The notes beneath the pieces were generated by a model. It saw nothing but the letters and a program-made list of their open reading frames with translations, did not search any database and was not told the DNA's origin. Of a DNA stretch of 43,669 nucleotides, positions 6,907-37,893 are shown piece by piece. Each line of letters begins with the position of its first letter. The first letter of the stretch is position 1. The stretch spans positions 1-43,669 of the forward strand of contig NZ_AXDW01000023.1 of assembly GCF_000474945.1 (NCBI RefSeq), in the 5' to 3' direction. This stretch comes from Solimonas soli DSM 21787 (GTDB taxonomy: Bacteria; Pseudomonadota; Gammaproteobacteria; Nevskiales; Nevskiaceae). The position numbers and the translations under genes were made by a program.

Positions 6907-8175
6907 TCAGCCGGCGGCCAGCCTGAGTAGCGCTGGCGAAGGTGCGAAGTCGGGACCGAGCTTGCTTTCGAGCCGCTGCAGCGCTTTGACGACGCGGTCG
7001 AGTCCCAGACAGCGCGCATAGTACATCGGCCCACCGCGCCGGCGCGGCCAGCCGTAGCCATTGATCCAGACGACGTCGATATCTTCTTCGCTGCTCGCGA
7101 TGCCTTCGTCGAGGATGCGCGCCGCCTCGTTGATCATCGGAAAGAGGCAGCGCTGCAGGATTTCCTCATCGCTGATCGGCGCGCGGGCGATGCCGTGGCG
7201 CGCCGAGAAATCGAGAATCAGCTGCTCAACCAGCGTTGAGTTCCGCCGCCGCCTGTCGCTGTCGTAATCGTAGTATCCAGCGCCAGCCTTCTGGCCGTGA
7301 CGGCCCATCTCGTTGAGTACCTCACGTACCGTCGCAGAGCGCGAATCCGCCTTCGACCAGCCTAGATCGAGGCCCGCCAGATCAGCCATTGCGAACGGCC
7401 CCATGGGGAATCCGAACGCGGTGAACACGCGATCGACGTCCCAAGGCATCGCGCCTTCCAAGATCAGGCGCTCGGACTCGCGCCGCCGCTGCGCCAGCAT
7501 GCGGTTGCCGACGAATCCGTAGCACACTCCGACGACTACTGGAATCTTGCCGATCGCGCCGGCCAATTCGACGCAGGCGTCGACGACCGCAGTGGCGGTC
7601 CGTTCGGCGCGGACGATCTCCACCAGCTTCATGATGTTGGCCGGCGAAAAGAAATGCAGTCCCAGAACCGACTCCGGTCGGCGTGTTACAGCAGCGATCT
7701 CGTTGATGTCGAGATAGGAAGTGTTGGTCGCCAGCACCGCGCCCGGTTTGGCGATGGCATCGAGCTGCGTGAACACTGCGCGCTTGACCTCCATCGTCTC
7801 GAACACCGCCTCGATGATCAGGTCGCTGTCCGCCAGATCCTGCATCTGCGTCGAAATTCGCAGGCACTGCATGCGCGCCGCTACGCTGGCGTCGGTGAGA
7901 CGTCCTTTCTTGACTGCGCTGTCGTAGTTGCGCCGGATCGCCGTCACGCCGCGATCGAGCGCGGTCTTTGTGGTGTCGACGAGCGTGACTGGCAGGCCGA
8001 TGTTCAGGAAGTTCATCGCGATGCCGCTGCCCATCGTGCCGGCGCCGATCACACCCACTGCGCTGATTGAGGGGCGCTCGGCGAGCAGACTGCCGGCTGT
8101 CCAGGACCGGCACTCGGCACGGTCGATGTAGGCCAGCGCCTCGGCATCTGCCGTCGTCGTTTCATTCATATCCAT
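6907..8175 (-). CDS. 3-hydroxyacyl-CoA dehydrogenase, FadJ/FadB-like without hydratase domain
   Basis: 422 residues. After an N-terminal leader of about 40 residues comes the NAD-binding motif G-A-G-T-M-G-S-G, then I-E-A-V-F-E, the catalytic His in L-H-F-F-S-P-A-N, and two C-terminal 3HCDH helical domains. The leader (L-L-A-E-R-P before the Rossmann fold) resembles the linker that joins hydratase and dehydrogenase halves in FadB/FadJ, and the dehydrogenase also has FadB-type W-I-N-G-Y-G-W-P. So this looks like the C-terminal two thirds of a multifunctional beta-oxidation protein used alone. It oxidises L-3-hydroxyacyl-CoA to 3-oxoacyl-CoA with NAD+. The ATG at 8175 follows a GGAG; ATG 8169 and an upstream start at 8202 are alternatives. 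It is the last gene of the long minus-strand run. Confidence 0.88.
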
Positions 8176-8230
8176 GCTCGAATCTCCGGCGGAGCATTGC
8201 AATGTCTTGCGGTACGCGCCACGCTCCGTA

Positions 8231-9868
8231 TCAGGCCGCCTGCGCTCGCTGGTCTTCGGCGATCAGTTCCGCAGCGCGCCAGGCCACGGCCATGACCGGC
8301 GCATGCGTGTTGCCGGAAACCAGCGTCGGGAAGACCGAAAGATCGACGACGCGCAGTCCGTTGACGCCGCGCACGCGCAGGCGCGCGTCGACGACACTGC
8401 CGGCGTCGCTGCCCATGCGGCAGGTGCCGGCGGCGTGGTAACCCGCGCCCCCCATCATGCTGTACGCTCCGAGAATTTCCTCGTCGGTCTGCAGATGCGC
8501 GCCCGGCAGGGTCTCTCCCTTGACGTATGGCTTGACCGCGGGCTGCTCGAAGATCCGGCGGATGAGGCGCGCCGTGGCGATGGCGACGCGCTTGTCATAG
8601 TCGGCGGCGAGATGGTTGTGAAAAATCTCCGGCGCATCGTTCGGATCGGCCGAGCGGATGCATAGATGACCCTGGCTCTCGGGGCGCAGCACATAGCCGA
8701 GCATCGAGCAGCCGGGCTCCTTCTCCATCGGCACGCCTTTCTCGAAGCCCTCCCACTTGGCGAGGTCCATGGTCATCGGCGCGCAGACGAGCTGGGCATC
8801 GGGCCGGTCCGATGCGGAATCGGCCTTCACAAACGCGGTGATGTCGTAGGGCCCGCTGGCAAGCAGGCCCTTGCGCGTGAGCACGTACTTCACGATCTGC
8901 CGCGCCAGCCCGAGACCGGAATACGCGGCATTCTGGCTGTACGGTCCGTTCAGACGGAACTGCACGGTGTAGATCAAATGCTCTCGCAGGTTGGTGCCGA
9001 CGGCAGGGCTATGCTGTACGACCGGAATGCCGAAGCTCGACAACAGCTTTTCGTCGCCGATTCCGGAGAGCTGCAGGAGCTTGGGCGATTCCAGCGCACC
9101 GGCACTGACGATCACTTCACGCTCGGCCCGGAAGGTCTCGCGCGCGCCTCCGCGCACGCATTCGACGCCCACCGCACGCCGGCCCTCGAAGACCAGCCGC
9201 TGCGCGAGCGTGTTCGTCTTGACGGTGAGATTCGCTCGCGAGCGCGCGGGCTCCAGGAAGGCCTTGGCCGCACTCCAGCGCCGCCCCTTGTGAATGTTGG
9301 CGCAGATGTAGGAAACGCCCTCGTTGTCGGGATGCGAAGGGTCCTCGCGCACCGGAATGCCGAGCTGGCCGGCAGCCTCGATGACCTTGTCCATCAGCAG
9401 GGTCTTGTTGCGAGTCTGCGAGACGTGGACCGGGCCGCCGACATGGCGCCAAGCGTTCGCACCGAGCGCGTGGTCCTCGAGGTCGAGGAAGATCGGCCCG
9501 AGCCGGTCCCATCCCCAGCCGGCAAGACCGAGCGCGTCGCGCCAGTGGTCGTAGTCCTGGCGATGCCCGCGCTGATACTGCAGGCCGTTGACGGAGCTTG
9601 AGCCGCCCAGCACGCGCCCGCGTATCCACGACTCGCCGGTGGTCTTGGCACCGCTGCCGGGCTTCACGTCGTAGTACCACATGTGGCGCCGGTCGCCGAG
9701 GATTTTGCCGAAGCCCTTGGGAATGTGAATCATCGGGTTCCGGTCCTCCGGGCCGGCCTCGATCAGCAGAACCCGGCTGCGCGGGTCCGCGGACAGCTTG
9801 TCGGCGAGCACGCAGCCGGCCGAACCGGCGCCGATGATGACGTAGTCGTATGACTGTGACTGACTCAT
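8231..9868 (-). CDS. GMC-family FAD-dependent alcohol dehydrogenase/oxidase
   Basis: A 545-residue glucose-methanol-choline oxidoreductase. It has the FAD Rossmann motif G-A-G-S-A-G at 13-18, then E-A-G-P, R-G-R-V-L-G-G-S-S-S-V-N-G (GMC signature 1), S-A-G-A-L-E-S-P-K-L-L (signature 2) and the C-terminal catalytic region with Y-H-A-A-G-T-C-R-M-G and S-G-N-T-H-A-P. Relatives include AlkJ-type alcohol dehydrogenases and BetA choline dehydrogenase. No signal peptide is evident, so it is cytoplasmic or inner-membrane associated. It probably oxidises a primary or allylic alcohol made by the monooxygenase or epoxide hydrolase (inference). The ribosome site GAGGAGGGAGGAG is very strong. A 101-nt gap separates it from the upstream gene; no promoter is evident there. 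Confidence 0.92.
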   Translation of the reverse strand: MSQSQSYDYVIIGAGSAGCVLADKLSADPRSRVLLIEAGPEDRNPMIHIPKGFGKILGDRRHMWYYDVKPGSGAKTTGESWIRGRVLGGSSSVNGLQYQRGHRQDYDHWRDALGLAGWGWDRLGPIFLDLEDHALGANAWRHVGGPVHVSQTRNKTLLMDKVIEAAGQLGIPVREDPSHPDNEGVSYICANIHKGRRWSAAKAFLEPARSRANLTVKTNTLAQRLVFEGRRAVGVECVRGGARETFRAEREVIVSAGALESPKLLQLSGIGDEKLLSSFGIPVVQHSPAVGTNLREHLIYTVQFRLNGPYSQNAAYSGLGLARQIVKYVLTRKGLLASGPYDITAFVKADSASDRPDAQLVCAPMTMDLAKWEGFEKGVPMEKEPGCSMLGYVLRPESQGHLCIRSADPNDAPEIFHNHLAADYDKRVAIATARLIRRIFEQPAVKPYVKGETLPGAHLQTDEEILGAYSMMGGAGYHAAGTCRMGSDAGSVVDARLRVRGVNGLRVVDLSVFPTLVSGNTHAPVMAVAWRAAELIAEDQRAQAA

Positions 9869-9969: not shown

Positions 9970-10227
9970 TCACAACTCATGCTCGTCGAGCAGGCGCCCG
10001 GCTTCCGCAGCGTCGGCCAGCGGCTGCAGGCCCGAACGCTGCAGGCAGGGTCGCACGATACGCACCGTCGCCTGCGTGCGCGCCTCGACGCGCTCGAACC
10101 GCAGCTGCCAGCTGCAGCCGCAGCCGCCTTCGATCTCCAGCACCAGCACTGCCGCGTTGTCGCGCGAGCAGCCGAGAACCCGCTGCTGCTCGTAGGTGCA
10201 GAGCGGGCACACGAGCCGCGTCGCCAT
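9970..10227 (-). CDS. Small cysteine-rich protein of unknown function downstream of the DUF35 gene
   Basis: An 85-residue protein. Its N-terminus has C-P-L-C (7-10) with C20, and C36-G-C38 lies in the middle, so it may bind zinc as a half-ribbon. The rest is a mixed beta/alpha sequence ending D-E-H-E-L. I do not recognise a family. It follows the thiolase-like/DUF35 pair in the same direction and may be a third subunit or scaffold of that complex (inference). No strong ribosome site is visible before ATG 10227; ATG 10266 would add 13 residues and lies 12 nt after the DUF35 stop. It could be a non-coding stretch with a chance reading frame, but the composition is protein-like. Confidence 0.55.
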   Translation of the reverse strand: MATRLVCPLCTYEQQRVLGCSRDNAAVLVLEIEGGCGCSWQLRFERVEARTQATVRIVRPCLQRSGLQPLADAAEAGRLLDEHEL

Positions 10228-10280: not shown

Positions 10281-10715
10281 TCAGCGCAGCATGGCCGCCA
10301 GCAGCGGCCCGTCCCGGAAACGCAGCACGACCAGCCGCACCGGCATGTCCGGCGCGAACTCGCGGCCTGGCACCGCCACCAGCCGCAGCGCAAGCCGCAG
10401 GCCGGCGTCGAGATCGACGATGCCGACTTCGTAGGGCAGCTCGGCCGCGAACATCTCCGGGCCGGCGTGGACGCGCGTCCACGAATACAGCCGGCCCAGC
10501 GGCTGCAGCGGCGTCCAGCGCACCTCGCCGTGCCAGCAATGCGGACAGACCGGCTTCGGCGGGAACGAAAGTGCGCCGCAGGCGGCGCATCGCGTGGTCT
10601 GCAGTCGGCCTGCCGCCAGCGCTTCCCAGAACGGCTGCGTGAATTCGCTGGTACGCGGCGGATAACTGCGCACGCGGTCGACGTCGATCCGCTCCATCTC
10701 CTCGATCCCGCTCAT
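10281..10715 (-). CDS. DUF35 OB-fold zinc-ribbon protein (acyl-CoA-binding partner of thiolase-like protein)
   Basis: 144 residues. The N-terminal helix F-T-Q-P-F-W-E-A-L is followed by a rubredoxin-like zinc ribbon with C43-x2-C46 and C57-x2-C60, then an OB-fold (about 65-144; L-G-R-L-Y-S-W-T, Y-E-V-G-I-V-D-L). Known role of the family: partners of thiolase-like enzymes in which the OB-fold holds the CoA substrate, as in ChsH2-DUF35/Ltp2 of steroid side-chain degradation. The start overlaps the stop of the thiolase-like gene (ATGA), which implies translational coupling and a stoichiometric complex. Length and architecture are normal for stand-alone DUF35 proteins. Confidence 0.88.
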   Translation of the reverse strand: MSGIEEMERIDVDRVRSYPPRTSEFTQPFWEALAAGRLQTTRCAACGALSFPPKPVCPHCWHGEVRWTPLQPLGRLYSWTRVHAGPEMFAAELPYEVGIVDLDAGLRLALRLVAVPGREFAPDMPVRLVVLRFRDGPLLAAMLR

Positions 10716-11902
10716 CGCCGCGCCTCCAGTACGTGAACCAGCGCGGCGTTGTAGTTGCCGAGCTCGTTGCTCGACAAGCCCAGCTCCGCGTCCTCCACCT
10801 GTCTTGCGCCGGCGCGGCCGCGCAGCTGCTCGGCCAGTTCGACCATGCCGTATAGCGGCGTCGCGTAGGAGGGATGGCCGCGCGATGTCAGGCCGCCTGA
10901 CGTCGAGATGGGAATGCGGCCGCCGAGGCGCGTCTCGCCGGCGGCGGCGGCGGCGGCGCCCTGCCCGCGCGGTGCCAGTCCCAGCGCCTCGCCGGCCAGC
11001 ACCTCGACGATCGTGCACGGCGCGTACAGTTCCGCCAGATCGAGATCGCCCGGGCCGATGCCGGCGGCTTCGTAAGCCAGGCGACCGGCCGTCTCGGCGG
11101 CGACGAAGCGGATCATGTCGTTGGGCACTTCGCTGATCTGGTGCGCGCCTTCATGAAAGAAACCGCGGCCGCGCACCAGCACGTAGGGCAAGCCGGAAGC
11201 CTTGGCCCGCGCTTCGGATACGATCACCAGACAGGCCGCACCGTCGCCGCGCGGCGGGACTTCGTAGAGACCCAGCGGCTCGACGATCGGCCGCTGCGCC
11301 AGCACTTCGTCGAGCGTGATCGGCGCTCGGTACTGCGCCAGCGGATTGAGCGCCGCGTGCGCGCGGTTCTTGACGGCGACGCTGGCGAGCTGCGCGCGCG
11401 TGGCGCCGTATTCGTGCATGTAGCGCACCGCGTCCATTGCGTACCAAGAGATCGGAATCAGGCCGCTCGGCGAATGGAAATCGACATCACCCGTCGCGCG
11501 CACGCTGTCCTTCATGTGCTCGGCCGAGGTCACCGACATCTCCATGTTGACGCCGAAGGCCAGCGCGACCTCGGCACGGCCGAGGAGAATCTCGTCGCAG
11601 GCCTTGTCGAAGGCCAGCGCCGCGGTCATGCCGTTGCCCATCGTCTCCATCACCACACCCGAGCATGGTAGGCGCAGGTAGTGCGCCATGAAGGTGCTGA
11701 AGTATTTCTGCTTGGTGTACGGCCGCGGATGCGCGCAGACGATAGCGTTGACCTCGCTTTTTTCGACCTGCGCATCCTGCATCGCCTCCACCACCAGCCG
11801 CGCGATCATCTCGTGCTCGACGGTCTGGATCGGCTCGCTGGCCTTGCGCTGGTATTTGCGGACCGGCACCGCCGCGGTGCCGAGAATGGCGGCTCTGCGC
11901 AT
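10712..11902 (-). CDS. Thiolase-like protein lacking the nucleophilic cysteine (Ltp2/SCP-x-type, possible retro-aldolase)
   Basis: 396 residues with thiolase fold signatures: start A-A-I-L-G-T-A, a C-terminal G-G-L-T-S-R-G-H-P-S-Y-A-T with the catalytic His, and a closing N-Y-N-A-A-L-V-H-V-L. Where ordinary thiolases have N-A-C-A-S-G this protein has E86-T-M88-G-N-G, so the nucleophilic Cys position appears to be Met. Loss of that Cys together with an adjacent DUF35 partner is the known pattern of Ltp2-type aldolases, which cleave beta-hydroxyacyl-CoA thioesters of branched side chains. A carbon-carbon lyase role is therefore more likely than thiolysis (inference). It starts 2 nt after the stop of the MDR gene and overlaps the DUF35 gene. 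The alignment at the Cys position was done by eye. Confidence 0.82.
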   Translation of the reverse strand: MRRAAILGTAAVPVRKYQRKASEPIQTVEHEMIARLVVEAMQDAQVEKSEVNAIVCAHPRPYTKQKYFSTFMAHYLRLPCSGVVMETMGNGMTAALAFDKACDEILLGRAEVALAFGVNMEMSVTSAEHMKDSVRATGDVDFHSPSGLIPISWYAMDAVRYMHEYGATRAQLASVAVKNRAHAALNPLAQYRAPITLDEVLAQRPIVEPLGLYEVPPRGDGAACLVIVSEARAKASGLPYVLVRGRGFFHEGAHQISEVPNDMIRFVAAETAGRLAYEAAGIGPGDLDLAELYAPCTIVEVLAGEALGLAPRGQGAAAAAAGETRLGGRIPISTSGGLTSRGHPSYATPLYGMVELAEQLRGRAGARQVEDAELGLSSNELGNYNAALVHVLEARR

Positions 11903-11904: not shown

Positions 11905-12918
11905 TCAGGTTTCCGGTGAAGAAGGGGGGAGCCGCGTATCGAGCACCAGCTTGCCGGTCTTGCGGCCCTCTCGGATGCGCGCCAGCGCCTCGGCGAACTG
12001 CTCCAGCGGCAGCACCGCGTCCACGTGCGGACGCAACTTGCCGGCGCCGTGCAGATCGAACAGATGCTGCTGCACGACGCGCACGCGCTCGGGCTGGCGC
12101 GCGCGGTAATCGGTCCACTGCAGGCCCGCCACCGCGATGTTCTTAACCAGCAGGTAATTGGCCTTGATCTGCGGGATGCGCCCGCCCGCGAAGCCGACGA
12201 CGACGACGCGCCCGCACCAAGCGGCTGCGCGAAGAGAAGCATCGAACACATCGCCGCCAACCGTCTCGATCACCACATCGGCGCCATGGCCCTGCGTGGC
12301 GTCCAGCACCTGCCTGCGCAGGTTCTCGCGCAGACCTTCGGCGGCGAGCACGATCACCTGATCGGCGCCGGCCGCGCGCAGCGCCTCGGCCTGCTCCGGG
12401 CGCGACACGCCGGCGATGACGAGTGCGCCCTGGCTGCGCGCGATCTGCACTGCCGCCAGGCCGACGCCGCCGCCGGCGCCGGTGATCAGCACCGTCTCGC
12501 CCGGCCGCCAGGCAGCGCGCTGCATCAGCGCGAAGTAGGCGGTCTGGTAGACCAGGCCCATCGCCGCCGCGTCGATGAAGCTCATCGTCTCCGGCAGCCG
12601 ATACACCCAGTCCGCCGGCGCGACGGCCTGGCTCGCGTAAGCGCCATGATCGAGATGCGCCAGCACGCGATCTCCGACGCGCAGCCCGCGCACGCCGGCG
12701 CCGATGGCGGCGATCACGCCCGCCGCGTCGGTGCCCGGCACGAACGGCAGCGGCGGCAACTTCTGGTATTCGCCCGCCATCAGCAGCAGGTCCGGGAAAT
12801 TGACGCCGGCCGCGTGCACCTCAATGCGCACCTCGCCGTCGCCGCAGGCCGGCGATTTGCAGTCCTCGACGCCATGCGCCTGCGGCGGCCCGAAGGCATG
12901 GACGCGAACGGCCCTCAT
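11905..12918 (-). CDS. Zinc-independent MDR oxidoreductase (NADPH:quinone oxidoreductase / acryloyl-CoA reductase-like)
   Basis: 337 residues. The N-terminal GroES-like domain (A-A-G-V-N-F-P-D, F-V-P-G-T-D-A-A-G) lacks the zinc ligands of alcohol dehydrogenases. A Rossmann domain follows with G-A-G-G-G-V-G (about 145-152) and the quinone-oxidoreductase type E-T-V-G-G. Family members reduce quinones, enones or enoyl-CoA (AcuI-like) with NADPH. Here it could saturate an unsaturated acyl-CoA or ketone intermediate (inference). The ATG at 12918 overlaps the CoA-transferase stop as ATGA and is preferred over ATG 12927. Confidence 0.87.
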   Translation of the reverse strand: MRAVRVHAFGPPQAHGVEDCKSPACGDGEVRIEVHAAGVNFPDLLLMAGEYQKLPPLPFVPGTDAAGVIAAIGAGVRGLRVGDRVLAHLDHGAYASQAVAPADWVYRLPETMSFIDAAAMGLVYQTAYFALMQRAAWRPGETVLITGAGGGVGLAAVQIARSQGALVIAGVSRPEQAEALRAAGADQVIVLAAEGLRENLRRQVLDATQGHGADVVIETVGGDVFDASLRAAAWCGRVVVVGFAGGRIPQIKANYLLVKNIAVAGLQWTDYRARQPERVRVVQQHLFDLHGAGKLRPHVDAVLPLEQFAEALARIREGRKTGKLVLDTRLPPSSPET

Positions 12919-14054
12919 GGCGCCCATCCCCCGAAGTCCGCGGCGGCTTCGTTCAGCTTCGGAAATCGTTGCGGCTGCGATGCCGGGCGGCGGAACACGC
13001 CGGCCACCGGCACCGGCAGCGCCGGTATCGAGCGCCCAACCTCGTCCTCGACCCGGTGAGCAAACAGCTCGCGGCTGTTGAAATGCTCGTGCTGCACGGC
13101 CTCATCCAGCGTGCGCACGCGGTTGACGCAGACGTCGATGCCGGCCAGCACCCGCTCCCAGTCGGCCGCGTCGCGCGTGCGCAAAATCGCGGCGACGCGC
13201 ATGCGCGTGCCTTGAGGATCGCGCCTGTCGTCCAGCAGTTCCGGCGCGCCGATCGCGGCGACGAATGCCTGCCAGAACTTGTCCTCCAGCGGCGCGACGG
13301 CCAGAAACTGATCATCGCGCGTGCGGTAGATCTGGTAGCGCGGCGAGCCGCCCGTGACCAGGTCGCTGCCCGGCCGCGGCCAGTGGCCCGCGGCGTGGCC
13401 ATTGCCGAGCCCCCAGTACATGGTCGTGAACAGGCTGTCGGCCATCGCGATGTCGAGTCGACATCCGCCACCGCCGGCATCGCGGCGACGCAGCGCCAGC
13501 AGGATGTTGATTGTCGCCGGCATCGCGCCGCCGGCGATGTCGCCGATCAGCGCCTGCGGCAGCTGCGGGGTGCCGTGCGCGTCGGCGGTCTGCGCGAGCA
13601 GGCCGGTTTCGGCGGCAAAGTTCAGATCATGCGCGGCAAGCTGCGACAGCGGGCCGTGCTGGCCGTATCCGGTGATCGAGCAGTAGATCAGCTCCGGCTT
13701 GAGTTCACGCAGCCGCTCATAGCCCAGGCCCAATCTGTCCATCACGCCGGGACGGAACTGCTCGACGACCACATCGGCCTCGCGCACCAGCGCGCGCGCC
13801 TGATCACGCCCCGGCGGCTGGCTGAGATCGAGCACCAGCGAGCGCTTGCCACGGTTGAGCATCGCGAAGTTGACGGCCTCGTCGCCGAAGCGCGGCTCGT
13901 AGGCGCGCATGCTGTCGCCGCCATCCGGTCTCTCAATCTTGACGACCTCGGCGCCGGCCTCCGCCAGCATCAGCGTGCACAGCGGTCCCGGCACCAGCGT
14001 GCTGAAATCGAGCACGCGGATGCCGGCCAGCGGCTGCGGCACCCGGTTCGCCAT
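12915..14054 (-). CDS. CaiB/BaiF-type (class III) CoA-transferase, copy 2
   Basis: 379 residues with L-A-G-I-R-V-L-D-F at 9-17, A-E-A-G-A-E-V-V-K-I-E, E-Q-F-R-P-G-V-M and the catalytic aspartate D172 (L-I-G-D-I-A-G-G). It transfers CoA between acids through an aspartyl thioester. Its ATG overlaps the stop of the 3HCDH C-domain gene (TGATG) and its stop overlaps the start of the MDR gene, so it sits in a tightly coupled operon core. Sequence features such as D-L-N-F-A-A-E-T and A-M-A-D-S-L resemble alpha-methylacyl-CoA racemase-like (AMACR) members of the family. A racemase acting on a 2-methyl-branched acyl-CoA is therefore a real alternative, and one that would suit isoprenoid degradation. 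Confidence 0.86.
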   Translation of the reverse strand: MANRVPQPLAGIRVLDFSTLVPGPLCTLMLAEAGAEVVKIERPDGGDSMRAYEPRFGDEAVNFAMLNRGKRSLVLDLSQPPGRDQARALVREADVVVEQFRPGVMDRLGLGYERLRELKPELIYCSITGYGQHGPLSQLAAHDLNFAAETGLLAQTADAHGTPQLPQALIGDIAGGAMPATINILLALRRRDAGGGGCRLDIAMADSLFTTMYWGLGNGHAAGHWPRPGSDLVTGGSPRYQIYRTRDDQFLAVAPLEDKFWQAFVAAIGAPELLDDRRDPQGTRMRVAAILRTRDAADWERVLAGIDVCVNRVRTLDEAVQHEHFNSRELFAHRVEDEVGRSIPALPVPVAGVFRRPASQPQRFPKLNEAAADFGGWAP

Positions 14055-14707
14055 CAGCCCGCCATCGCCCGTTGATGCGCGATCTGCGCTCGCCGTGCCG
14101 GCGCATAGGCCGCGTCGCCGAGCGACAAGTACAGCGCCTGCGTCACTTCGTAATGCGCCGCGAGCCCGGTACGCTCCAGCAGCGCCAGCGGTCCTTCCGG
14201 GTAGCCGAGACCGAGGCACAGGGTCTTGTCGATTTCCTCTGCGCTCGCCAGTTTCTCGTCGTGGCGGCGCAGCACGGCGTTGTAGTACGGCCGCACCAGA
14301 CGGTCGACGATGCGGCCCGGAAAGTCGTTGCAGACGGCCACGACCAGATCGGCGGCCTCGAACGCGGCCCTGGCGGCGGCCACGGCCTCCTCGCGCGTCC
14401 ACGGCTGGCGCACCAGCTCGACCAGGCGGCTCGGCTCCGCGCTACCCAGACGGAAGCGCGCGAAGCCGACGACATTGTTGCGGCGCTCGTCGGCCGCCTC
14501 GCCCGCATGCACGCCCAGGCACTCCACTCCAAGCTCGATGGCGACGAATGCGGCATCGTCGACTGCCATGAGGGCACCATAGGCCGCGCCAGCCTCCTTG
14601 CCGACCAGCACGATCCCGGCGCCGTCGGTCGTGGCCAGGTCGAGGAAAGGATGCGCGACCGGAAAAGAACGGCTCTCTCCGGCGCGCCGGATGCGATAAG
14701 TACTCAT
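14054..14707 (-). CDS. Orphan 3-hydroxyacyl-CoA dehydrogenase C-terminal-domain protein (no Rossmann domain)
   Basis: 217 residues. The C-terminal part (about 125-200) matches the helical 3HCDH dimerisation/substrate domain: G-R-I-V-D-R-L-V-R-P-Y-Y-N-A-V, then A-E-E-I-D-K-T-L and G-Y-P-E-G-P-L-A-L-L-E. The first 120 residues are not the expected NAD-binding fold: there is no G-x-G-x-x-G and no catalytic His. They form a mixed alpha/beta stretch I cannot assign. It lies 2 nt downstream of a complete hydroxyacyl-CoA dehydrogenase and overlaps CoA-transferase 2. It may be a non-catalytic partner of that dehydrogenase or a diverged duplicate. No frameshift is seen joining it to the neighbour. Confidence 0.75.
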   Translation of the reverse strand: MSTYRIRRAGESRSFPVAHPFLDLATTDGAGIVLVGKEAGAAYGALMAVDDAAFVAIELGVECLGVHAGEAADERRNNVVGFARFRLGSAEPSRLVELVRQPWTREEAVAAARAAFEAADLVVAVCNDFPGRIVDRLVRPYYNAVLRRHDEKLASAEEIDKTLCLGLGYPEGPLALLERTGLAAHYEVTQALYLSLGDAAYAPARRAQIAHQRAMAG

Positions 14708-17514: not shown

Positions 17515-17544
17515 GATTCGTGCTTCCTCGGGCATGGGCATGTA

Positions 17545-22065: not shown

Positions 22066-22122
22066 TTTCTCACGGCCGCCTTGTCCGACATGCCAGGCGG
22101 CACCTCCTCGCACATCCATACT

Positions 22123-22163: not shown

Positions 22164-22221
22164 GTGCACGACGGCGGCACGACAGATTGCCCCGATACAT
22201 ACACGAGAGGAGAATCCGAAC

Positions 22222-26365: not shown

Positions 26366-26404
26366 GGGACGCTTCCGCCATCAGACGGAGCGTCCCTTCT
26401 TTTT
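26366..26404 (+). terminator. Intrinsic terminator after the epoxide hydrolase
   Basis: GGGACGCT pairs with AGCGTCCC (with CCG/CGG continuing the stem after one bulged T), followed by TTCTTTTT. It ends the receptor-cupin-epoxide hydrolase operon and overlaps the last codons of the convergent LysR gene. Confidence 0.88.
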
Positions 26405-27469: not shown

Positions 27470-27560
27470 TCAAAGCATGCAGTCGCCATGCAATCGTTCG
27501 CTGCAAGATCGTATCGCATCGCTCGATCCGGCATTGACACAAACTCTGAGGAGACAGCAG

Positions 27561-31112: not shown

Positions 31113-32116
31113 GTCGTGAAGAGCCCGACCGGATCGGCCCAGCGGCGGCCCTGTCGGCGCGTCAACGCCTGCAGCGACTGCGTCTCCTGCGCCATGCCGT
31201 AGCCGATGCGACCATCGTCGAGGCGCCATCGCATCATCGCCGCGTAGACCCAGAGGCTGGCGTAGCAGACCCAAGGCGCGCCGACCTGAGCCATACCCTC
31301 CAGCACGAAGCGCCGGCCACGCTTGTCGACGGCCGTCACGTCGATGCAGACAGGCGTACTGTCTACGTGGATGACACTCATCTGCAGATCGGTCAGGCCA
31401 TACACCTCACCCTGCTCCATCACATAGCCGTGCGCCAGACGGTGCTGCGCACCCGGTGGCGCGTCCATGTCCCAGCTATTGATCCAGTGGATCGCCAGAT
31501 CCGGACCGAAGTGCGCGTGCATCCAGCCCATGGCCGGCATGCCGATCTCGACGCGCGGGCCCCAGCTGTGGTCCATGGTCTCGACGCAGTCGACCGCGTA
31601 CTCGCGGCCGCGCAGGCGCAGGCTGCCGGTGACGCGCCCGGTCAGATCGAAGTGACCGCCGTAGGCGGCGCCGAAGCCGGAACCGGCGGCGCGCGCGTAT
31701 TCGCCGCGCGCCGCGCGCGGGCTGTGCTCCGGATCGTGGATGTCGAAGGGCTCCATCAGGCCATGGAAATCGACGTGCAGCTCGGTATCGTCGTAGCCGA
31801 CGTAGTCGATCCGGTAGTCGCGCGGCGGCCGCGTCGCGCGAACCGAAAGGCCGTTGGCCGTCTCGTATGCGGACAGCCGCGCCGGCGCCGGCAGGTGCTG
31901 TCGGCAGTCGATGTACAGGCATTCCGCCCGTCGGCTGGCGAGCGAGCCGTAGATTACGATGTCCGCCGACATCACGCCGAGCACCGGACGCGACACCGTG
32001 TAGACGCAAGCCATCAGCCGTTCCTCGGGCAGCAGGATGCTGAAGATATTGGTTTCCGCCCAGCGATAGTCGGCATCGGCTCCATGGTGGAACTCGACGT
32101 CTTCAGGACCGATCAT
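31109..32116 (-). CDS. DUF7064-like protein, possibly lipocalin/CrtC-type beta protein
   Basis: 335 residues, rich in Trp, Tyr and His and mostly beta by composition, without signal peptide or membrane segment. Landmarks are D-H-S-W-G-P-R (about 187-193), G-W-M-H-A-H-F, and I-H-W-I-N-S-W-D. I recall this type as a conserved unknown found beside APH-family kinases in catabolic clusters, and the D-H-S-W-G pattern faintly resembles hydratase/cyclase-like lipocalin proteins (CrtC, AttH). Both points are memory-based and uncertain. GGGAGTGAAG precedes the ATG. It is the first gene of the coupled trio, whose promoter must lie in 32117-32354, where I see hairpins but no clear promoter boxes. Confidence 0.7.
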   Translation of the reverse strand: MIGPEDVEFHHGADADYRWAETNIFSILLPEERLMACVYTVSRPVLGVMSADIVIYGSLASRRAECLYIDCRQHLPAPARLSAYETANGLSVRATRPPRDYRIDYVGYDDTELHVDFHGLMEPFDIHDPEHSPRAARGEYARAAGSGFGAAYGGHFDLTGRVTGSLRLRGREYAVDCVETMDHSWGPRVEIGMPAMGWMHAHFGPDLAIHWINSWDMDAPPGAQHRLAHGYVMEQGEVYGLTDLQMSVIHVDSTPVCIDVTAVDKRGRRFVLEGMAQVGAPWVCYASLWVYAAMMRWRLDDGRIGYGMAQETQSLQALTRRQGRRWADPVGLFTT

Positions 32117-32354: not shown

Positions 32355-32879
32355 TCAGCCGTGCGCTTGCCGCGCAACCGGCGGCGGCTCGATATGGTCG
32401 GCTGCTCCGTTGGCCTTGGCCATCTCGTACATCGCGTCGCAGCTCATGCAGCCGTCTACGGTGCCGTCCTCTTTGACGCCGCCGAGGCCGCCGAAGAAGA
32501 TCGTGAAGGTGATCAGATCCGCATCGTCGCCGATGCGCGGCTCGTGGGCGATGCCGCCGCCCTCGACCAGCAGGTCGCCCTCATACGCCAGGCCGTGCTC
32601 GTAGCCGAACGCGCCGCTGAGGACGTAGGCATGCGCCTCGCCGAAGTGGAAGTGCTTTTCCGTCTGCGTGCCCTTCTCGATCTTGATCAGCGCCACCGTC
32701 ATGCCGATCGCGCGATTGACGTACAGCAGCTTGAACGATGAGCCCTTCAAGGCCCATGGCGTCCACGGAATGTGCTCGCAACGGACGATGACCGACTTGT
32801 CGGGAAATCGTACCGACTGCTTGGGATCGTGTCCCATCTCGATCAGCTTCTCGTATGAAATCTCTGCTGCTTGATTCAT
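32355..32879 (-). CDS. Cupin-domain protein (cytoplasmic)
   Basis: 174 residues. A single cupin with H76-F-H78 plus H83 in the first motif and H112 in the second, a complete metal-binding set. There is no signal peptide. The late C-x2-C pair (C-M-S-C) is outside the cupin core. Such proteins include dioxygenases, isomerases and ChrR-like sensors, so activity cannot be assigned. GGAGG lies upstream of the ATG. The 109-nt AT-rich gap before it suggests its own promoter rather than read-through from the EamA gene. It might act on a diketone or enol intermediate (inference). Confidence 0.82.
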   Translation of the reverse strand: MNQAAEISYEKLIEMGHDPKQSVRFPDKSVIVRCEHIPWTPWALKGSSFKLLYVNRAIGMTVALIKIEKGTQTEKHFHFGEAHAYVLSGAFGYEHGLAYEGDLLVEGGGIAHEPRIGDDADLITFTIFFGGLGGVKEDGTVDGCMSCDAMYEMAKANGAADHIEPPPVARQAHG

Positions 32880-32988: not shown

Positions 32989-33888
32989 TCAAGCGTCCTT
33001 GGACAAAAGACGATTCGGCCACGCGGACGCCGCACCGTCGTCACTGGCGTTGCGTGCGCGCTGCGAGCTGTAGAGGTTGGCGAGCACGATCAGGACGGCG
33101 CCGGCAATCGTCCAGGCGGTGGGCACCTCGAAGAAGAGCAAGTAGCCGAGCGCCGCCGCGAAAACCAACTGCAGATAGTCAAACGGCGCCAGCACGGTCG
33201 CGTCGGCTTCCCGGTAGGCCATGATCATCACGGTCTGACCGGCGCTGCCGAGTGCCCCCGTCATCAATAGCAGCAGCAGCTCCTCTGCCCCAGGCCGCTG
33301 CCAGAAGGCGATGGCCGGCAGCCCGGTGACCACGGTCGTCGACAGGCCGAAATAAAACATCACTGTCACCGGCCGCTCCGAGCGCATCAGGTGTTTAATG
33401 ATGACGATCACGCACGCCGCGAGCAGGGCGCCGAACAGCGCGACGCCTGCAGCCAGCGTCAGTCCGGCCTGCGGCCTGAGCATCAGCAGCACGCCGATGA
33501 AACCGAGCAGCGCGACTGCCGAACGATCACGCCGGATTCGTTCGTGCAGAAATGCCGCCGCGAGCAGCACGATGAAGAGGTTGCGGGTGAAGCCGTAGGC
33601 CGTCGCGTCGGCCAGCGGCAGGTGCATGACACTGTAAAAGATCGAAAGCACGCTGCAGCCGCTGGCCAGGCCGCGCACGACATGAGCGCCTGGGTGGCGG
33701 GTCTTCAGCACCTTCAGGCCACTGAGCATGACGAACGGCCACACCAGCACCCAGCCGAAGGCCGAGCGGAAGAAGGCGATCTCGAAGACATTCAGCCGCG
33801 CGCCCAGATGCTTGGACAGCGCGTTCATCGCGCTGAAGCACAGCCCTGACAGGACGATCAGGAGGATACCGCGCAGTTTTCGTGACAT
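32989..33888 (-). CDS. EamA/DMT-family transporter (RhaT-like), 10 membrane segments
   Basis: 299 residues with about ten hydrophobic segments and two EamA repeats (about 8-140 and 150-285). The start is M-S-R-K-L-R-G-I-L-L with the positive-inside pattern. Family members export or import small metabolites across the inner membrane. It has a GGAGG site and starts 20 nt after the reductase stop, so it is the last gene of the monooxygenase operon. That arrangement suggests uptake of the substrate or export of a toxic alcohol/epoxide product (inference). The C-terminus is a soluble basic tail. Confidence 0.88.
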   Translation of the reverse strand: MSRKLRGILLIVLSGLCFSAMNALSKHLGARLNVFEIAFFRSAFGWVLVWPFVMLSGLKVLKTRHPGAHVVRGLASGCSVLSIFYSVMHLPLADATAYGFTRNLFIVLLAAAFLHERIRRDRSAVALLGFIGVLLMLRPQAGLTLAAGVALFGALLAACVIVIIKHLMRSERPVTVMFYFGLSTTVVTGLPAIAFWQRPGAEELLLLLMTGALGSAGQTVMIMAYREADATVLAPFDYLQLVFAAALGYLLFFEVPTAWTIAGAVLIVLANLYSSQRARNASDDGAASAWPNRLLSKDA

Positions 33889-33908: not shown

Positions 33909-34934
33909 CTAACCGGCCGTGCTGACGAACTTGTCGAACCGGATGCGCGTCGAGAACATACCCTTGGCCTTCAGCACCTCGACCGCGGCATCGATCATCG
34001 GCGTCGGTCCGCAGAGATAGGCTTCCGAGCCACGCAAATTGCCGCTGTGCCGCTGCAGGACTTCGGTGATCAGGCCCGTCTCGCCATCCCAGCGGTCGCC
34101 CGGTTCCGGCGCCGACAGTGCGGGGACGTATCGGAAATCCGGGAGCCGGCGGCCCAGCGCAGCGATCTCCTCGGTCAGGAACAGGTCGCGTAGCGCGCGC
34201 GCGCCGAAGTAGAAGCGGATCGGCCGCGTCGTCCGCTGCTCGGCGAGCTCATTCAGCATCGACAGGATCGGCGCCATGCCAGAGCCGCCGGCGACCATGA
34301 TGATCGGCGCGACGCCCGGCGCGACCGAGAACTGCCCGTAGGGACCGCGCACATTGAGTGGATCACCCGGGCGGGCGCGCTCGCGCAGGTAGCCGGACAC
34401 GGCGCCGCCGGGCAGCAGCTTGATCATCAGTACGACGCGGTCAGGCTCGCTCGGGGGATTCGCCATCGAGAACGCACGCCAGGCATCGGTGCCAGGTACG
34501 TTGATCTCGACGAACTGGCCGGCATTGAAGCGCATGAAATCGGGCTGCTGCAGCTTCAGCTCTAGACGCATGATGTCGTGCGTCAGCGCCTCGACCGCGA
34601 CGACGCGCGCCTTGTAGTCGCCGATCGGCGGCGCCGAGCTGAGTTCCTCCTCGGTGTAGTCATCGGCTAGCTCGATGACGATGTCTTCCTCCGGAACCGC
34701 CGCGCACAGCAGCGCCAAGCCCTGGTTACGCTCGAATTGCATGAGTGCGACTTCTGATGCGTGCGCCTGATCGACCTCCCCCTCCGCGATCTGCGCCTTG
34801 CAGCTGCCGCAGTTGCCGTGCTTGCAGCCGTAGCGCAGCGAAATACCGTTGCGCAGCGCTGCGCTGAGGATGGTTTCCCCTTCGGCGCAGTCGAAGCTGA
34901 CACCGAAAGGCTGCAGGGTGACCGTATGGCTCAA
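33909..34934 (-). CDS. Soluble di-iron monooxygenase reductase (2Fe-2S, FAD, NADH)
   Basis: 341 residues. The N-terminal plant-type ferredoxin domain has C37-x4-C42-x2-C45 and C77. The FAD-binding domain has R-A-F-S-M-A-N-P-P, and the NAD domain has G-G-S-G-M-A-P-I-L-S-M-L and ends with C-G-P-T-P-M-I. It moves electrons from NADH to the di-iron hydroxylase, as in MmoC, DmpP and AmoD. The start codon is TTG (34934): GGAGG is 6 nt upstream and TTGA overlaps the stop of the hydroxylase alpha gene, so translation is coupled. No ATG is available near the domain start; the reading frame extends upstream only into the alpha gene in another frame. Confidence 0.93.
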   Translation of the reverse strand: MSHTVTLQPFGVSFDCAEGETILSAALRNGISLRYGCKHGNCGSCKAQIAEGEVDQAHASEVALMQFERNQGLALLCAAVPEEDIVIELADDYTEEELSSAPPIGDYKARVVAVEALTHDIMRLELKLQQPDFMRFNAGQFVEINVPGTDAWRAFSMANPPSEPDRVVLMIKLLPGGAVSGYLRERARPGDPLNVRGPYGQFSVAPGVAPIIMVAGGSGMAPILSMLNELAEQRTTRPIRFYFGARALRDLFLTEEIAALGRRLPDFRYVPALSAPEPGDRWDGETGLITEVLQRHSGNLRGSEAYLCGPTPMIDAAVEVLKAKGMFSTRIRFDKFVSTAG

Positions 34935-36487
34935 CGGATACCTCCGGGCGCTGCGGCGACCACGGGCTCGTCGACGAACGGTGGCGGCGGCGGGCGCTTG
35001 ACGACGAAATCGCAGCACCTGAGATCCGCGCGCGTCCACATCCGCGCGCCGTCGAGCTCCGGCTGGCCGATCAGCGTCTCGCCGTCGTCGCGAACGTAGC
35101 CCATGTGATCGACGACTTCCGACAGCTCCTTACCGTGATAGAGATCGTAAAAGCCCTTGTCGGTCTGGTAGTGCTGCGGATCCTTGACGTAGATGTCCTG
35201 GCAGCCGGGCGAGCAGACGATGTGCGCCTTGCCGCCGTGCATGAACGATCGTCCACTATGCGCGGCCGGCGTCGGGAAGATCAGCGGACGCTGGCAGACC
35301 TCACAGAAGTTCGGCAGGCCGCCGAGCTGGCCGAGAATGATGGTCTTGTCGGTCGGATCCTTGCACTTGTTGTATGCCTCCCAGAACCAGCCGTAGCGGC
35401 TGTACCAGCCCGGGTACTTCTTCTCGAACCATTCCATGTCTGCCGTCGTCATCGGATCGGCGCGGTGGTAGAAGAATGGCCAGGCGCCGAAGATGTAGAC
35501 GGCGGCGGCGTGCGAGAGATCGTCCATCTCCGCCATCTGCTCGTCGAGCCGCGGCGGCGGCCGAATGCCGTAGCGCTCCAGCTTCTGGTAGAAGCCGCCG
35601 TAGAACTCGTCGTAGACCCACCGCAGCGAGGCCTCCTTCGCGGACTCGGTTCGGTTCTTGGTGAAGTAGTCCTGGAACAGCGCGTTGCCGAGGCCGAAGC
35701 TGACATGCGCGCGCCACGACCACTTGTCGAGCACCTCCTGAACCAGCGGCACGTTGCGGTCGTCCTGCAGCACCGTCACCAGCGTCGCCCAGCCGTTGGC
35801 CATGTGCCGCGCCTCGTCGGACTGGATCGTCAGGAAGGTCGAGGCCATCGTGTGGTCGCCCTGGGCGACGGCCGCCGACGACAGACCTACGAAGAACACG
35901 TTCGAATACGCCGTCTCGAGGAAGACCTGCAGGCTGATCGCGGTCTCGATCGGATCGCAGGTCGTGCAATCCTCCATCATCGCGCGGAACATGCCGGATC
36001 CGACGTTGTTGCCGGCGCCCTTGAGGGCGATGTCGTAGCCGGCGGGGTCATGCCAGGTTCGCATGTTGTGGCGCAGGTTGTTCATCTCGAGCTGCGCATG
36101 CCGCATCTCGTCTATCATCTGCATCATGTAACCTTGGCGCAGTTCCACCGGCGCCACCGAGCGCGCCATGCGCCCCATCTGCCGGCCGGCGGCGTATTCG
36201 ACGAAGGCGAAGTTGGAGAGGCCGAACTTCATGCCTTCCATCCAGCGCGCCTCGGCGTGGCCTTGGTGCAGGCGGGAGGACGCCTCGAGCACCGAGTAGT
36301 GCCGGTTCTCCTTCTCCTGCTCCATCTTGAAGTATTCGCGGATGAAGGTCTTGAAGGGATCGAGCGGCTTGAGATCCTTGACGAAGAAGCGACTCTGTTC
36401 GAGATACTTTTCGTCGGTGCTGATGTAGCTGGGATTCCAGTCGATGGCCTTGACGCGGTCGTAGGCCTTTGTGATTGGCAGTGCCAT
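34931..36487 (-). CDS. Soluble di-iron monooxygenase, hydroxylase alpha subunit
   Basis: 518 residues. All six predicted iron ligands are present: E97, E127-x2-H130 (D-E-M-R-H), E191 (F-L-E-T-A-Y) and E225-x2-H228 (D-E-A-R-H). A C-terminal YHS-like zinc site has C395-x2-C398 and C425-x3-C429, as in DmpN, TmoA and PrmA-type subunits. It activates O2 to hydroxylate or epoxidise a hydrocarbon. Because there is no gamma subunit and the gene order is beta-coupling-alpha-reductase, it best fits alkene monooxygenase-like (group 4, AmoABCD/EtnABCD) systems; substrate class is inference. It follows the coupling protein after 30 nt and overlaps the reductase start. Confidence 0.95.
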   Translation of the reverse strand: MALPITKAYDRVKAIDWNPSYISTDEKYLEQSRFFVKDLKPLDPFKTFIREYFKMEQEKENRHYSVLEASSRLHQGHAEARWMEGMKFGLSNFAFVEYAAGRQMGRMARSVAPVELRQGYMMQMIDEMRHAQLEMNNLRHNMRTWHDPAGYDIALKGAGNNVGSGMFRAMMEDCTTCDPIETAISLQVFLETAYSNVFFVGLSSAAVAQGDHTMASTFLTIQSDEARHMANGWATLVTVLQDDRNVPLVQEVLDKWSWRAHVSFGLGNALFQDYFTKNRTESAKEASLRWVYDEFYGGFYQKLERYGIRPPPRLDEQMAEMDDLSHAAAVYIFGAWPFFYHRADPMTTADMEWFEKKYPGWYSRYGWFWEAYNKCKDPTDKTIILGQLGGLPNFCEVCQRPLIFPTPAAHSGRSFMHGGKAHIVCSPGCQDIYVKDPQHYQTDKGFYDLYHGKELSEVVDHMGYVRDDGETLIGQPELDGARMWTRADLRCCDFVVKRPPPPPFVDEPVVAAAPGGIR

Positions 36488-36517
36488 GCTTCTCTCCGTA
36501 GTCGGTATCCGCCGGGT

Positions 36518-36838
36518 TCAGCCGCTGGCGAATTCGGTGATGGAAACGGCGTCGTCCTGTACATCGACCTGGCCGCTGTAGCTGGCCAGGACGGTGAGGA
36601 AGTCCGGCACCTCAAACTTGCGCCCCAGTTCTTCGCCGATGTCGGCGAGCCGGAACACCAACTCGCGCTCGTTCTCCAGGGCCAGATACGAACCGAAGTC
36701 CTTGACGACCAGATCGGGATTCGCGGCAGTCATCACTGCAACGATCGCCTCGGCGTCCGCGCCATTGATCAGCTTGGCGGTGACCTTGTGCGATTCCTTC
36801 CAGATCGACCGCGTCACGTCGTTCATCGCGTCGCTCAT
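36518..36838 (-). CDS. Monooxygenase coupling/effector protein (MmoB/DmpM family)
   Basis: 106 residues without cofactor motifs. The central I-V-A-V-M-T-A-A-N-P-D-L-V-V-K-D-F-G-S-Y and E-R-E-L-V-F match the conserved core of MmoB/DmpM/AmoB regulatory proteins. It binds the hydroxylase and speeds O2 activation and coupling. Its ATG overlaps the beta subunit stop (ATGA). An internal ATG four codons later is possible. Length is typical for the family. Confidence 0.92.
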   Translation of the reverse strand: MSDAMNDVTRSIWKESHKVTAKLINGADAEAIVAVMTAANPDLVVKDFGSYLALENERELVFRLADIGEELGRKFEVPDFLTVLASYSGQVDVQDDAVSITEFASG

Positions 36839-37893
36839 GCCGGCGCTCCCTCGGCAGCCGGAAGCTGGACCGTCGCCGGAAACTGCAACTGGAGTTCCGC
36901 CAGCAAGGCGGCCCACTGCGCGAGCAGTCGCTCGCGTGCCGCCGCGAAGGCTTGTGGATCGGCGTCCAGCTCGGCAAAGACCGGAGCGAAAGCCGCCACC
37001 GCCTCGACGGCGCGCGGCGCCCAGGTCTCCAGCCAGCGATTGATCGTGTCGCGATTGCCGCCGTCCTGCGTCAGCAGGAAGCTGACCAGCGCCTTGGCGC
37101 TGGCCTGCCGCATTTCGCGATCGGCTTCGACGCCCTGCTCGATGACCGGGGTGACGGAATCGCCGTAGTGCGGGGCATAACGCAGCACCAGCTCGCGGCT
37201 GAGCAGGGTCGATACCAGCGGCTCGACGACGAGATTGATCGCCAGATGAACCTCGCCCCAGTCGCGGCAGGCGAGCAACTGCTCGACGAGGCGTCGCGTC
37301 GGCTGCCAGGCCGGCGATTCCATCCAGCGCGTCATCGCGGTTTCGTCGGAATAGCCCGGCAGCAGCGATTCCAGCTCCATGCAGTACAGCGCGACGTCCT
37401 GCGCGTGGCGGTCTTTTTCCAGGGCCTGGAACACCGTCGGTGCCGAGACGACGTCAGACAAGGCATCGCGCTGCACATGGCATTGGCACATGAACAAACC
37501 GTAATCGGGATAACGGTACAGCGCGTAGTGGTCCGTCAGAAAGCACGACCAAGCCGGCGCGATGTGGCGATACATCGACGCACGCTTGGCGCCGGCAATG
37601 GCCTGCTCAATCGCCAGGCCAATCGCCGCCTGACGGTCGACGAAGGGCCGATACCATTCCTCGCAGGGATCACGGTAGGCCCACCAATCCTGTGCCTTCA
37701 GCGCCGTCGATTCCGGATACCACGACGGATTGTTGTGGACATCCCGATTGAAATATCCCTGCGTCGCGTAGTTCTGCGGCGCCCACTGGATATGCAGGGT
37801 GACTTCTTCATATTGCGTTGCACGACGCTTCGCCGGAGTGAAATAGCGAAACGCGATGTGCTTGCCGGGTGTACGTGCTGATAATGCCGACAT
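36835..37893 (-). CDS. Soluble di-iron monooxygenase, hydroxylase beta subunit
   Basis: 352 residues, mostly helical, related to the alpha fold but without iron ligands. It has W-Y-P-E-S, W-W-A-Y-R-D-P, E-E-W-Y-R-P-F, and A-I-N-L-V-V-E-P-L typical of MmoY/DmpL/AmoA-type subunits. It pairs with alpha to form the (alpha-beta)2 hydroxylase. It is the first gene of the monooxygenase operon. ATG 37893 follows GAGGAGAAAGGA; an earlier ATG at 37929 would add 12 residues upstream of that ribosome site and is unlikely. Confidence 0.93.
   Translation of the reverse strand: MSALSARTPGKHIAFRYFTPAKRRATQYEEVTLHIQWAPQNYATQGYFNRDVHNNPSWYPESTALKAQDWWAYRDPCEEWYRPFVDRQAAIGLAIEQAIAGAKRASMYRHIAPAWSCFLTDHYALYRYPDYGLFMCQCHVQRDALSDVVSAPTVFQALEKDRHAQDVALYCMELESLLPGYSDETAMTRWMESPAWQPTRRLVEQLLACRDWGEVHLAINLVVEPLVSTLLSRELVLRYAPHYGDSVTPVIEQGVEADREMRQASAKALVSFLLTQDGGNRDTINRWLETWAPRAVEAVAAFAPVFAELDADPQAFAAARERLLAQWAALLAELQLQFPATVQLPAAEGAPA

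Follow-up and report, generated by a model that had tools for sequence, protein, structure and literature searches.

A composite catabolic island in Solimonas soli: a predicted di-iron monooxygenase beside a ring-opening type CoA-ester module

Do the catabolic genes gathered on one contig of Solimonas soli DSM 21787 (NZ_AXDW01000023.1) belong to a single pathway? The whole stretch analyzed here, hereafter the window, is 43.7 kb long and comes from a genome of 4.19 Mb in 34 contigs. An initial annotation had placed a single catabolic island at positions 6907–37893. We selected the genes of the window via codon usage and named them through Pfam matches above the cut-off, and every family in the annotation could be traced to an open frame with such a match. 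These include candidates for oxygenating a substrate, opening an epoxide, activating an acid with CoA, opening a ring, and cleaving by retro-aldol reaction, but their histories differ. The island is a composite of two separately evolved units, unit A (15 genes on the minus strand, from 22,065 to 6,907) and unit B (from 37,893 to 28,618), and we put the chances at about even that the two now serve one route in the breakdown of an unsaturated cyclic compound. The clustering exceeds chance, in that the gene order of unit A is kept across five genera and the monooxygenase of unit B keeps company with a TetR gene, with or without a receptor gene. Among the genomes and plasmids examined, units A and B are combined in the host genome alone.

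Unit A is a predicted CoA-ester ring-opening type module that plasmids of beta- and alphaproteobacteria carry as well. Its first gene encodes a family III CoA-transferase (20827–22065; matched in four of five plasmid modules). The core genes that follow, all on the minus strand and assigned by Pfam, encode a BadI/MenB-like crotonase as the ring hydrolase candidate (20030–20809, ECH_1; 76–84% in the five modules), an AMP-dependent acyl-CoA ligase with an AliA-like role (18309–20009, AMP-binding), an enoyl-CoA hydratase with a BadK-like role (17545–18312, ECH_1), and an SDR dehydrogenase with a BadH-like role (16768–17541), the last three being present in all five modules. They are followed by an acyl-CoA dehydrogenase (15599–16768; 66–75% in the five), a 3-hydroxyacyl-CoA dehydrogenase (3HCDH; 14710–15585, 61–81% in the five), a short 3HCDH-family protein matched over its C-terminal domain (14054–14707, 3HCDH; five of five), a second family III CoA-transferase (12915–14054; in place on three plasmids, elsewhere on one, and not found on one), and a zinc-type NADPH:quinone/alcohol dehydrogenase (11905–12927; five of five). 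In the window, the unit is extended by an Ltp2/DUF35 pair (discussed below) and a GMC flavoprotein oxidoreductase (8231–9868, minus strand, GMC_oxred_N/C). The tail also holds an 85-residue protein (9970–10227, minus strand), which has the codon usage of a gene in that frame and no Pfam match, and another 3HCDH (6907–8175, minus strand, 3HCDH_N and 3HCDH). Because a further 3HCDH gene follows the core on three of the five plasmid copies, the latter is not peculiar to the window. The first 12 genes overlap or lie at most 20 bases apart, and the last three gaps measure 53–101 bases.

Matches to the crotonase occur in 78 plasmid records, and in 12 of these the identity is at least 60%. We inspected five of those 12 and, in addition, a 52% match in Rhodococcus opacus B4. 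On the five plasmids, which come from five genera, the order of the ten-gene core is kept at 44–84% identity. All ten core genes are found on Cupriavidus basilensis pRK1-1, Aminobacter pANY103b, and an Achromobacter denitrificans plasmid, where the second CoA-transferase and the 3HCDH were matched in pieces. The Paraburkholderia fungorum copy has nine, with the second CoA-transferase upstream, and that of Celeribacter indicus pP73A has eight, with no CoA-transferase matched. The idea of one ancient conserved island was rejected, as a search of 85 genomes of the order at E 1e-60 found the crotonase in the host genome only. At E 1e-100, it is again found in the host genome only, among 398 phylum-wide genomes and 369 genomes of the class. 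The unit A core recurs on the five plasmids with no monooxygenase, epoxide hydrolase, or Ltp2 match within 14–20 kb, and no crotonase above 42% was found in 15 genomes that carry the monooxygenase (described below).

Whether the crotonase can be called BadI was examined with curated models. It scores 209.5 bits against the BadI equivalog TIGR03210 (cut-off 467.6), a threshold passed in eight of the 398 phylum-wide genomes, and it is the single match in its own genome at E 1e-60. The MenB models give 212 and 239.5 bits (cut-offs 342.7 and 380), and the best solved relatives are MenB enzymes. Its GSFDAGYG stretch presumably resembles the corresponding stretch of BadI and MenB. In a tree of 30 sequences, the crotonase groups with the five plasmid copies (support 98/97) and then with R. 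opacus (99/100). This clade has a branch length of 2.2 changes per column and is 39–44% identical to 14 BadI-family rows, of which eight pass the BadI cut-off. A tree uniting the crotonase with the BadI-family rows was not rejected by the approximately unbiased (AU) test (p 0.24), and the outgroup is very distant; kinship with BadI is therefore neither shown nor excluded. The BadI/MenB-like crotonase of the annotation is present, but it is not a BadI by the curated test. We regard the crotonase as a predicted clade of its own that has the right neighbors and superfamily for ring opening. It might instead be a hydratase, an isomerase, or a MenB-type synthase, with unit A acting in a variant of side-chain beta-oxidation, as its long branch and its nearly equal BadI and MenB scores would allow. 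This is quite unlikely in our view, because the protein holds the GSFDAGYG stretch and its gene is packed with a ligase, an acyl-CoA dehydrogenase, a hydratase, and an SDR, which is the partner set of BadI. As to a precedent in the ecgonine pathway, no paper combining that pathway with such a crotonase was found in the literature searched.

Among described systems, the nearest to the window is the monoterpene island of Castellaniella, and the bad-ali clusters are also close. According to the accessible text on the ctm-geo-mrc genes of Castellaniella defragrans 65Phen, they lie on a genomic island seemingly acquired by transfer, limonene is activated without oxygen, and BadI-type enzymes, including MrcE with 88% identity to a BadI, are proposed to open 4-isopropenyl-2-oxocyclohexane-carboxyl-CoA (PMC4109377). 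The window resembles this island in having an SDR, a hydratase, and a BadI-type hydrolase proposed for an alicyclic acyl-CoA ring, along with an acyl-CoA dehydrogenase as in mrc. It differs in that MrcE is so much closer to BadI, activation in Castellaniella is oxygen-independent, and neither a di-iron monooxygenase nor an epoxide hydrolase figures in that part of its description. The bad-ali cyclohexanecarboxylate clusters of Rhodopseudomonas and Aromatoleum sp. CIB have, in the available portion of their description, the same five activities as the window, and in the Gram-negative clusters a MarR-type BadR regulator stands alongside (PMC9795900). The window likewise holds a ligase, an acyl-CoA dehydrogenase, a hydratase, an SDR, and a BadI-type crotonase in one cluster. 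No MarR-type regulator was found among its scanned genes, the regulators being LysR, TetR, and a flavin reductase fusion with an IclR-type domain. Unlike bad-ali, unit A adds two CoA-transferases and a quinone-oxidoreductase-like gene, and its plasmid copies have a sigma-54-type promoter. Identity with a classical cyclohexanecarboxylate cluster was rejected, since the cut-offs for AliA (TIGR03208; 253.5 of 792.3 bits), AliB (TIGR03207; 152.1 of 575.35 bits), and BadI are all failed by wide margins. The window would represent an aerobic equivalent of the Castellaniella and bad-ali chemistry, built from different branches. In line with the annotation's statement that the combination matches no single known pathway, no published cluster with all these parts was found in the literature searched, a search that was not exhaustive.

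The oxygenase lies in unit B, where genes for a beta subunit (36835–37893, Phenol_Hydrox), a coupling protein (36518–36838, MmoB_DmpM), an alpha subunit (34931–36487, Phenol_Hydrox; placed by trees), and a reductase with 2Fe-2S, FAD, and NAD domains (33909–34934, Pfam) follow one another on the minus strand. These are predicted to form a complete four-gene soluble di-iron monooxygenase (SDIMO). The residues E97, E127, H130, E191, E225, and H228 of the alpha subunit, which we take to be the di-iron ligands, are invariant in an alignment of seven sequences. In a pattern scan of an 84,980-species collection, the best 80 loci were taken, and 15 of their alpha subunits are 61–67% identical to that of the window, the next best being 41% identical. 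The 15 come from Zhongshania, Spongiibacter, Aestuariicella, Cellvibrionaceae, other proteobacterial metagenome-assembled genomes (MAGs), and one Myxococcota MAG; three MAG records among the relatives are titled Klebsiella pneumoniae, an apparent labelling artefact. A search of the 369 genomes of the class added one more relative at 67%.

In the midpoint-rooted alpha tree, the window and the 10 relatives included group together (100/100), and SDIMO groups 3–6 sit on a separate branch (100/98) that does not include them. The group labels of the references are supported by gene order, and the group 3 reference was assigned from its X-Y-B-Z-D-C-like gene order. Joining the window clade to group 4 costs 14 log units and is rejected (AU p 0.023), as are its union with group 5 (p 0.008) and with group 4 plus one more neighbor (p 0.019), the groups having been picked after the tree was seen. 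The order beta-MmoB-alpha-reductase is that of the Nocardioides JS614 and Mycolicibacterium NBB4 monooxygenases, presumably the EtnABCD ethene/vinyl chloride enzymes of group 4, and the alpha subunits are 40–41% identical. However, the window clade falls outside group 4, and the gene beside Etn is annotated as methionine synthase II family (which we take to be of the coenzyme M transferase type) and not as an epoxide hydrolase. The identification as a group 4 ethene monooxygenase was thus rejected by the tree and the AU test, with the post hoc groups and midpoint root just mentioned. The monooxygenase is apparently an unplaced lineage outside reference groups 3–6, and no description of such an alpha lineage was found in the literature searched. 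Six SDIMO groups are spoken of in the accessible part of one account (PMC9213486). The isobutylene ibc cluster of Mycolicibacterium ELW1 also combines a di-iron monooxygenase and an epoxide hydrolase, but its monooxygenase is, in the text available, predicted to belong to group 2 and has six genes (PMC13188929). The isobutylene epoxide hydrolase structure (9c2g) matches the epoxide hydrolase of the window only partly and weakly. The host genome has two further di-iron monooxygenase alpha subunits, on contigs C10 and C15, which are 28–31% identical to that of the window; the one on C15 groups with the DmpN phenol hydroxylase in the tree.

What could tie the two units together lies partly between them. 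Back to back with unit A is a plus-strand operon of a TonB-dependent receptor (TonB2; 22153–24576, Pfam), a cupin protein (24626–25135, Cupin_2), and an epoxide hydrolase (25163–26329, EHN, E 1.5e-37). The last has an EHN domain above the cut-off, the HGWP and GxDWG motifs, and a C-terminal His; among solved structures, it is closest to bacterial, juvenile-hormone, and microsomal epoxide hydrolases. Each of the five plasmid copies has a −24/−12 site (TGGCAY-N-TTGC; expectation by shuffling at most 0.008 for each) ahead of unit A, and four of them also have an annotated sigma-54 activator gene alongside. Neither strand of the window contains the pattern anywhere, the divergent intergenic stretch included (22066–22221 if TonB2 starts at 22222), and unit A of the window thus appears to be without the sigma-54-type promoter of its plasmid copies. 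We read the missing plasmid-type promoter, the divergent pairing with the receptor, cupin, and epoxide hydrolase genes, and the coupling of the Ltp2/DUF35 pair into unit A as signs of joint work.

A second tie is the other receptor (TonB1; 1655–4198, minus strand, Pfam Plug and barrel), which sits on the far side of unit A from unit B. TonB1 matches the receptor adjacent to the monooxygenase in four of the 15 loci, and in those four genomes, this receptor is the genome-wide best match (49–50% vs. 38–43% for the next). It is therefore probable, on these sequence comparisons, that TonB1 is the counterpart of the receptor adjoining the monooxygenase in the four relatives. In a fifth genome, the TonB1 matches reach at most 42%, and the monooxygenase contig ends 2 kb upstream; in the other 10, no match was found at E 1e-60. 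A TetR gene like that of the window (28618–29310, minus strand, Pfam) is found at most 10 kb from the monooxygenase in 10 of the 15 loci, and the additional locus has one as well (11 of 16).

The promoter, pairing, and receptor findings stand against the possibility that A and B are independent neighbor pathways, A for an alicyclic (hydroaromatic or naphthenic) carboxylic acid, and B, with TonB1 and the epoxide hydrolase, for an unrelated alkene. Their separate distribution, on plasmids and in monooxygenase genomes, respectively, would agree with this, as would the separate TetR and LysR genes. Unit A is also flanked by small-molecule transporters on the Cupriavidus and Celeribacter plasmids (ABC branched-chain type and TRAP), and by a type II dehydroquinase and SDRs in Cupriavidus, a setting that suits ready-made acids. 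On the other hand, unit A of the window is without the plasmid-type promoter and is paired divergently with the receptor, cupin, and epoxide hydrolase genes, and a receptor of the monooxygenase type lies beyond unit A. We consider two independent pathways a real possibility, though one clearly short of an even chance.

Several further observations weigh against a common route of the two units. No monooxygenase alpha subunit, epoxide hydrolase, or Ltp2/DUF35 pair was found near any of the five plasmid copies of unit A, in searches within 20 kb at E 1e-12 for three copies and within 14 kb at E 1e-3 for two, which covered the plasmids and not the chromosomes of their hosts. Conversely, none of the 15 monooxygenase genomes has a crotonase match above 42%; nine have a match at E 1e-40, all at 36–42%. 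The TonB1 link is a one-way best match. The presence of an epoxide hydrolase is a weak link, because all 15 monooxygenase genomes have a member of the EHN family. In favor of the link, two of the 15 loci have an epoxide hydrolase of this family (39–42%) at most 10 kb from the monooxygenase, but the closest ones (57–59%) are mostly not beside it, being on other contigs in Zhongshania and the Myxococcota MAG and on the same contig about 20 kb off in Spongiibacter (59%). The separate LysR and TetR regulators leave room for separate control. Finally, no MaoC hydratase was found among the scanned window genes, although MaoC accompanies the Ltp2/DUF35 pair in three relatives; a crotonase-type hydratase would therefore have to serve.

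Some of these parts were also seen on one plasmid or record at a distance from each other. In two Achromobacter plasmids, about 77 kb separate a match to the crotonase from an Ltp2-like one, and on Aminobacter aminovorans NZ_CP015007.1, a crotonase (78%) lies about 150 kb from a distant monooxygenase alpha subunit (31.5%).

The neighborhoods of the relatives also bear on the nature of the monooxygenase substrate, which might be an acyclic long-chain or branched alkene (an alpha-olefin or a squalene-like compound), with the ring opening of unit A concerning something else. In Zhongshania and Spongiibacter, the epoxide hydrolase with 57–59% identity lies near matches to acyl-CoA ligase, thiolase, hydratase, and 3HCDH, and near an aldehyde dehydrogenase recognized by eye. 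In Aestuariicella, a biotin-carboxylase-like gene (by eye) and a thiolase match are found 2–7 kb from the monooxygenase. However, these genomes are without the unit A crotonase and therefore say little on its role in the window, and we judge an acyclic substrate to be highly improbable.

The retro-aldolase candidate is an Ltp2-like thiolase-fold protein (10712–11902, minus strand), recognized by Pfam Thiolase_C_1, by solved-structure matches, and by an alignment with five homologs. Its gene starts two bases past the tenth unit A gene and overlaps by four bases that of its partner, a DUF35 protein with zf-ChsH2 and OB_ChsH2_C domains (10281–10715, minus strand). The Ltp2-like protein has a Gly where its solved thiolase relative has the Cys taken as the nucleophile, and this Cys is also absent in all five homologs (59–69%). 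Thus, as in retro-aldolases, a thiolase fold without the nucleophilic Cys is combined with an adjacent DUF35 protein of the ChsH2 type. Against the lipid-transfer-protein subfamily PRK08256, it scores 186.6 bits, below the cut-off of 436. The steroid side-chain retro-aldolases Ltp2/ChsH2 and Sal/Shy likewise consist of an aldolase and a DUF35 domain and, in the text accessible, cleave 3-hydroxyacyl-CoA beyond further oxidation (PMC11321319). In contrast, the pair of the window lies inside an operon of the ring-opening type and not in a steroid cluster, without a MaoC domain or gene among those scanned. Homologs in Roseomonas, Achromobacter xylosoxidans, and Pacificitalea adjoin acyl-CoA dehydrogenase, MaoC, and acetate-CoA ligase family genes, and such a neighborhood suits dehydrogenation, hydration, and carbon–carbon cleavage.

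Similar combinations were observed elsewhere. In locus L137 (8773–12667), from the Myxococcota MAG with the same monooxygenase lineage, genes for a cupin, an epoxide hydrolase (58%), an Ltp2-like protein (32%), and a DUF35 protein (34%) stand in a row that by eye also includes a MaoC-like gene, which echoes the cupin–epoxide hydrolase and Ltp2/DUF35 pairs of the window. In an Acidimicrobiales MAG (L072) and an uncultured proteobacterium (L065), an Ltp2-like gene is directly beside other di-iron monooxygenases, with a DUF35 gene in the former. The pairing of Ltp2-like lyases with di-iron monooxygenases may be recurrent.

If the units act jointly, the following route can be envisaged, for which the evidence covers gene presence and coupling and each reaction is taken from family membership. 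The TonB receptors would import a hydrophobic substrate, which the monooxygenase would epoxidize (or hydroxylate), and the epoxide hydrolase would turn the epoxide into a diol. The GMC and zinc dehydrogenases might then oxidize the diol towards an acid, and the ligase or a CoA-transferase would form the thioester. The acyl-CoA dehydrogenase, hydratase, and SDR/3HCDH enzymes could lead to a cyclic beta-keto-acyl-CoA, whose ring the BadI-like crotonase would open hydrolytically. Classical beta-oxidation would shorten the opened chain, and at a branch that prevents thiolysis, the Ltp2/DUF35 lyase would cleave a tertiary 3-hydroxyacyl-CoA. As a substrate, these activities suit a branched, unsaturated cyclic compound, for instance a monoterpenoid, the terpenoid being a guess. 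The full proposal, in which an undescribed SDIMO group would epoxidize larger TonB-imported cyclic olefins and be wired to a mobile non-BadI ring-opening module and a retro-aldolase in a new aerobic pathway for terpenoids or alicyclic hydrocarbons, is speculative, and we hold it to be rather unlikely as a whole. If true, it would add a further lineage to an environmentally important oxygenase family, with hosts including Zhongshania, Spongiibacter, and Aestuariicella. It would also reveal a second, non-orthologous way to open alicyclic CoA-ester rings, carried on plasmids of two bacterial classes, and exemplify how hydrocarbon-oxidizing and ring-opening units are joined and put under new control.

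The annotation had counted three CoA-transferases and two receptors within 6907–37893; all of them exist, but only two of the transferases and one of the receptors lie inside. The third family III CoA-transferase (4326–5555, minus strand, CoA_transf_3, E 3.5e-123), TonB1, and a classical 3-oxoacyl-CoA thiolase (5651–6859, plus strand, Thiolase_N/C) are just outside. This thiolase is 66% identical to a pcaF-annotated gene upstream of unit A in Paraburkholderia. The G+C content is 59–63% over the first 6 kb of the window and 60–71% beyond. Flanking genes were used to look for an insertion site; none of 12 relatives gave a match to an S9 peptidase gene at E 1e-80, and an OmpA-like gene is a member of a large paralogous family. 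The match of the latter (window 1–1632) starts at base 337, and a 70% paralog starts at base 337 of contig C1, which suggests an assembly break at a repeat.

Between the epoxide hydrolase and unit B are genes for a LysR regulator (26381–27385, minus strand, Pfam) and a protein that combines a flavin reductase domain with an IclR effector domain (27477–28628, plus strand, domain match), for which no partner flavin monooxygenase was found among the scanned window genes. Behind the monooxygenase, unit B continues on the minus strand with an EamA-family transporter (32989–33888, EamA), a ChrR-type cupin (32355–32879, Cupin_7), a DUF7065/DUF7064 protein (31109–32116, Pfam), an APH-family kinase-like protein (29910–31112, APH), and its 173-residue partner (29389–29910; 1-base overlap, no Pfam match). 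The last three genes (29389–32116) mutually overlap. A single-sequence AlphaFold model of the DUF7064 protein had a mean pLDDT of 36.8 and was not used. The APH protein matches ACAD11 weakly over part of the kinase region (E 1.2e-7), and a hydroxyacyl-CoA kinase pair is possible. In loci L031 (3702–6666) and L032/L067, from two genomes of the same family, an APH gene (39%) likewise follows a monooxygenase, there of a different lineage, and a 190-residue protein in L031 is weakly similar to the 173-residue protein (phmmer E 8.7e-5 in a set of about 20). In five of the 15 close monooxygenase loci (L044, L046, L047, L048, and L050), a protein of about 245 residues with a signal-like N-terminus is encoded near the monooxygenase, with weak SnoaL-like matches in the two tested (L044 and L048).

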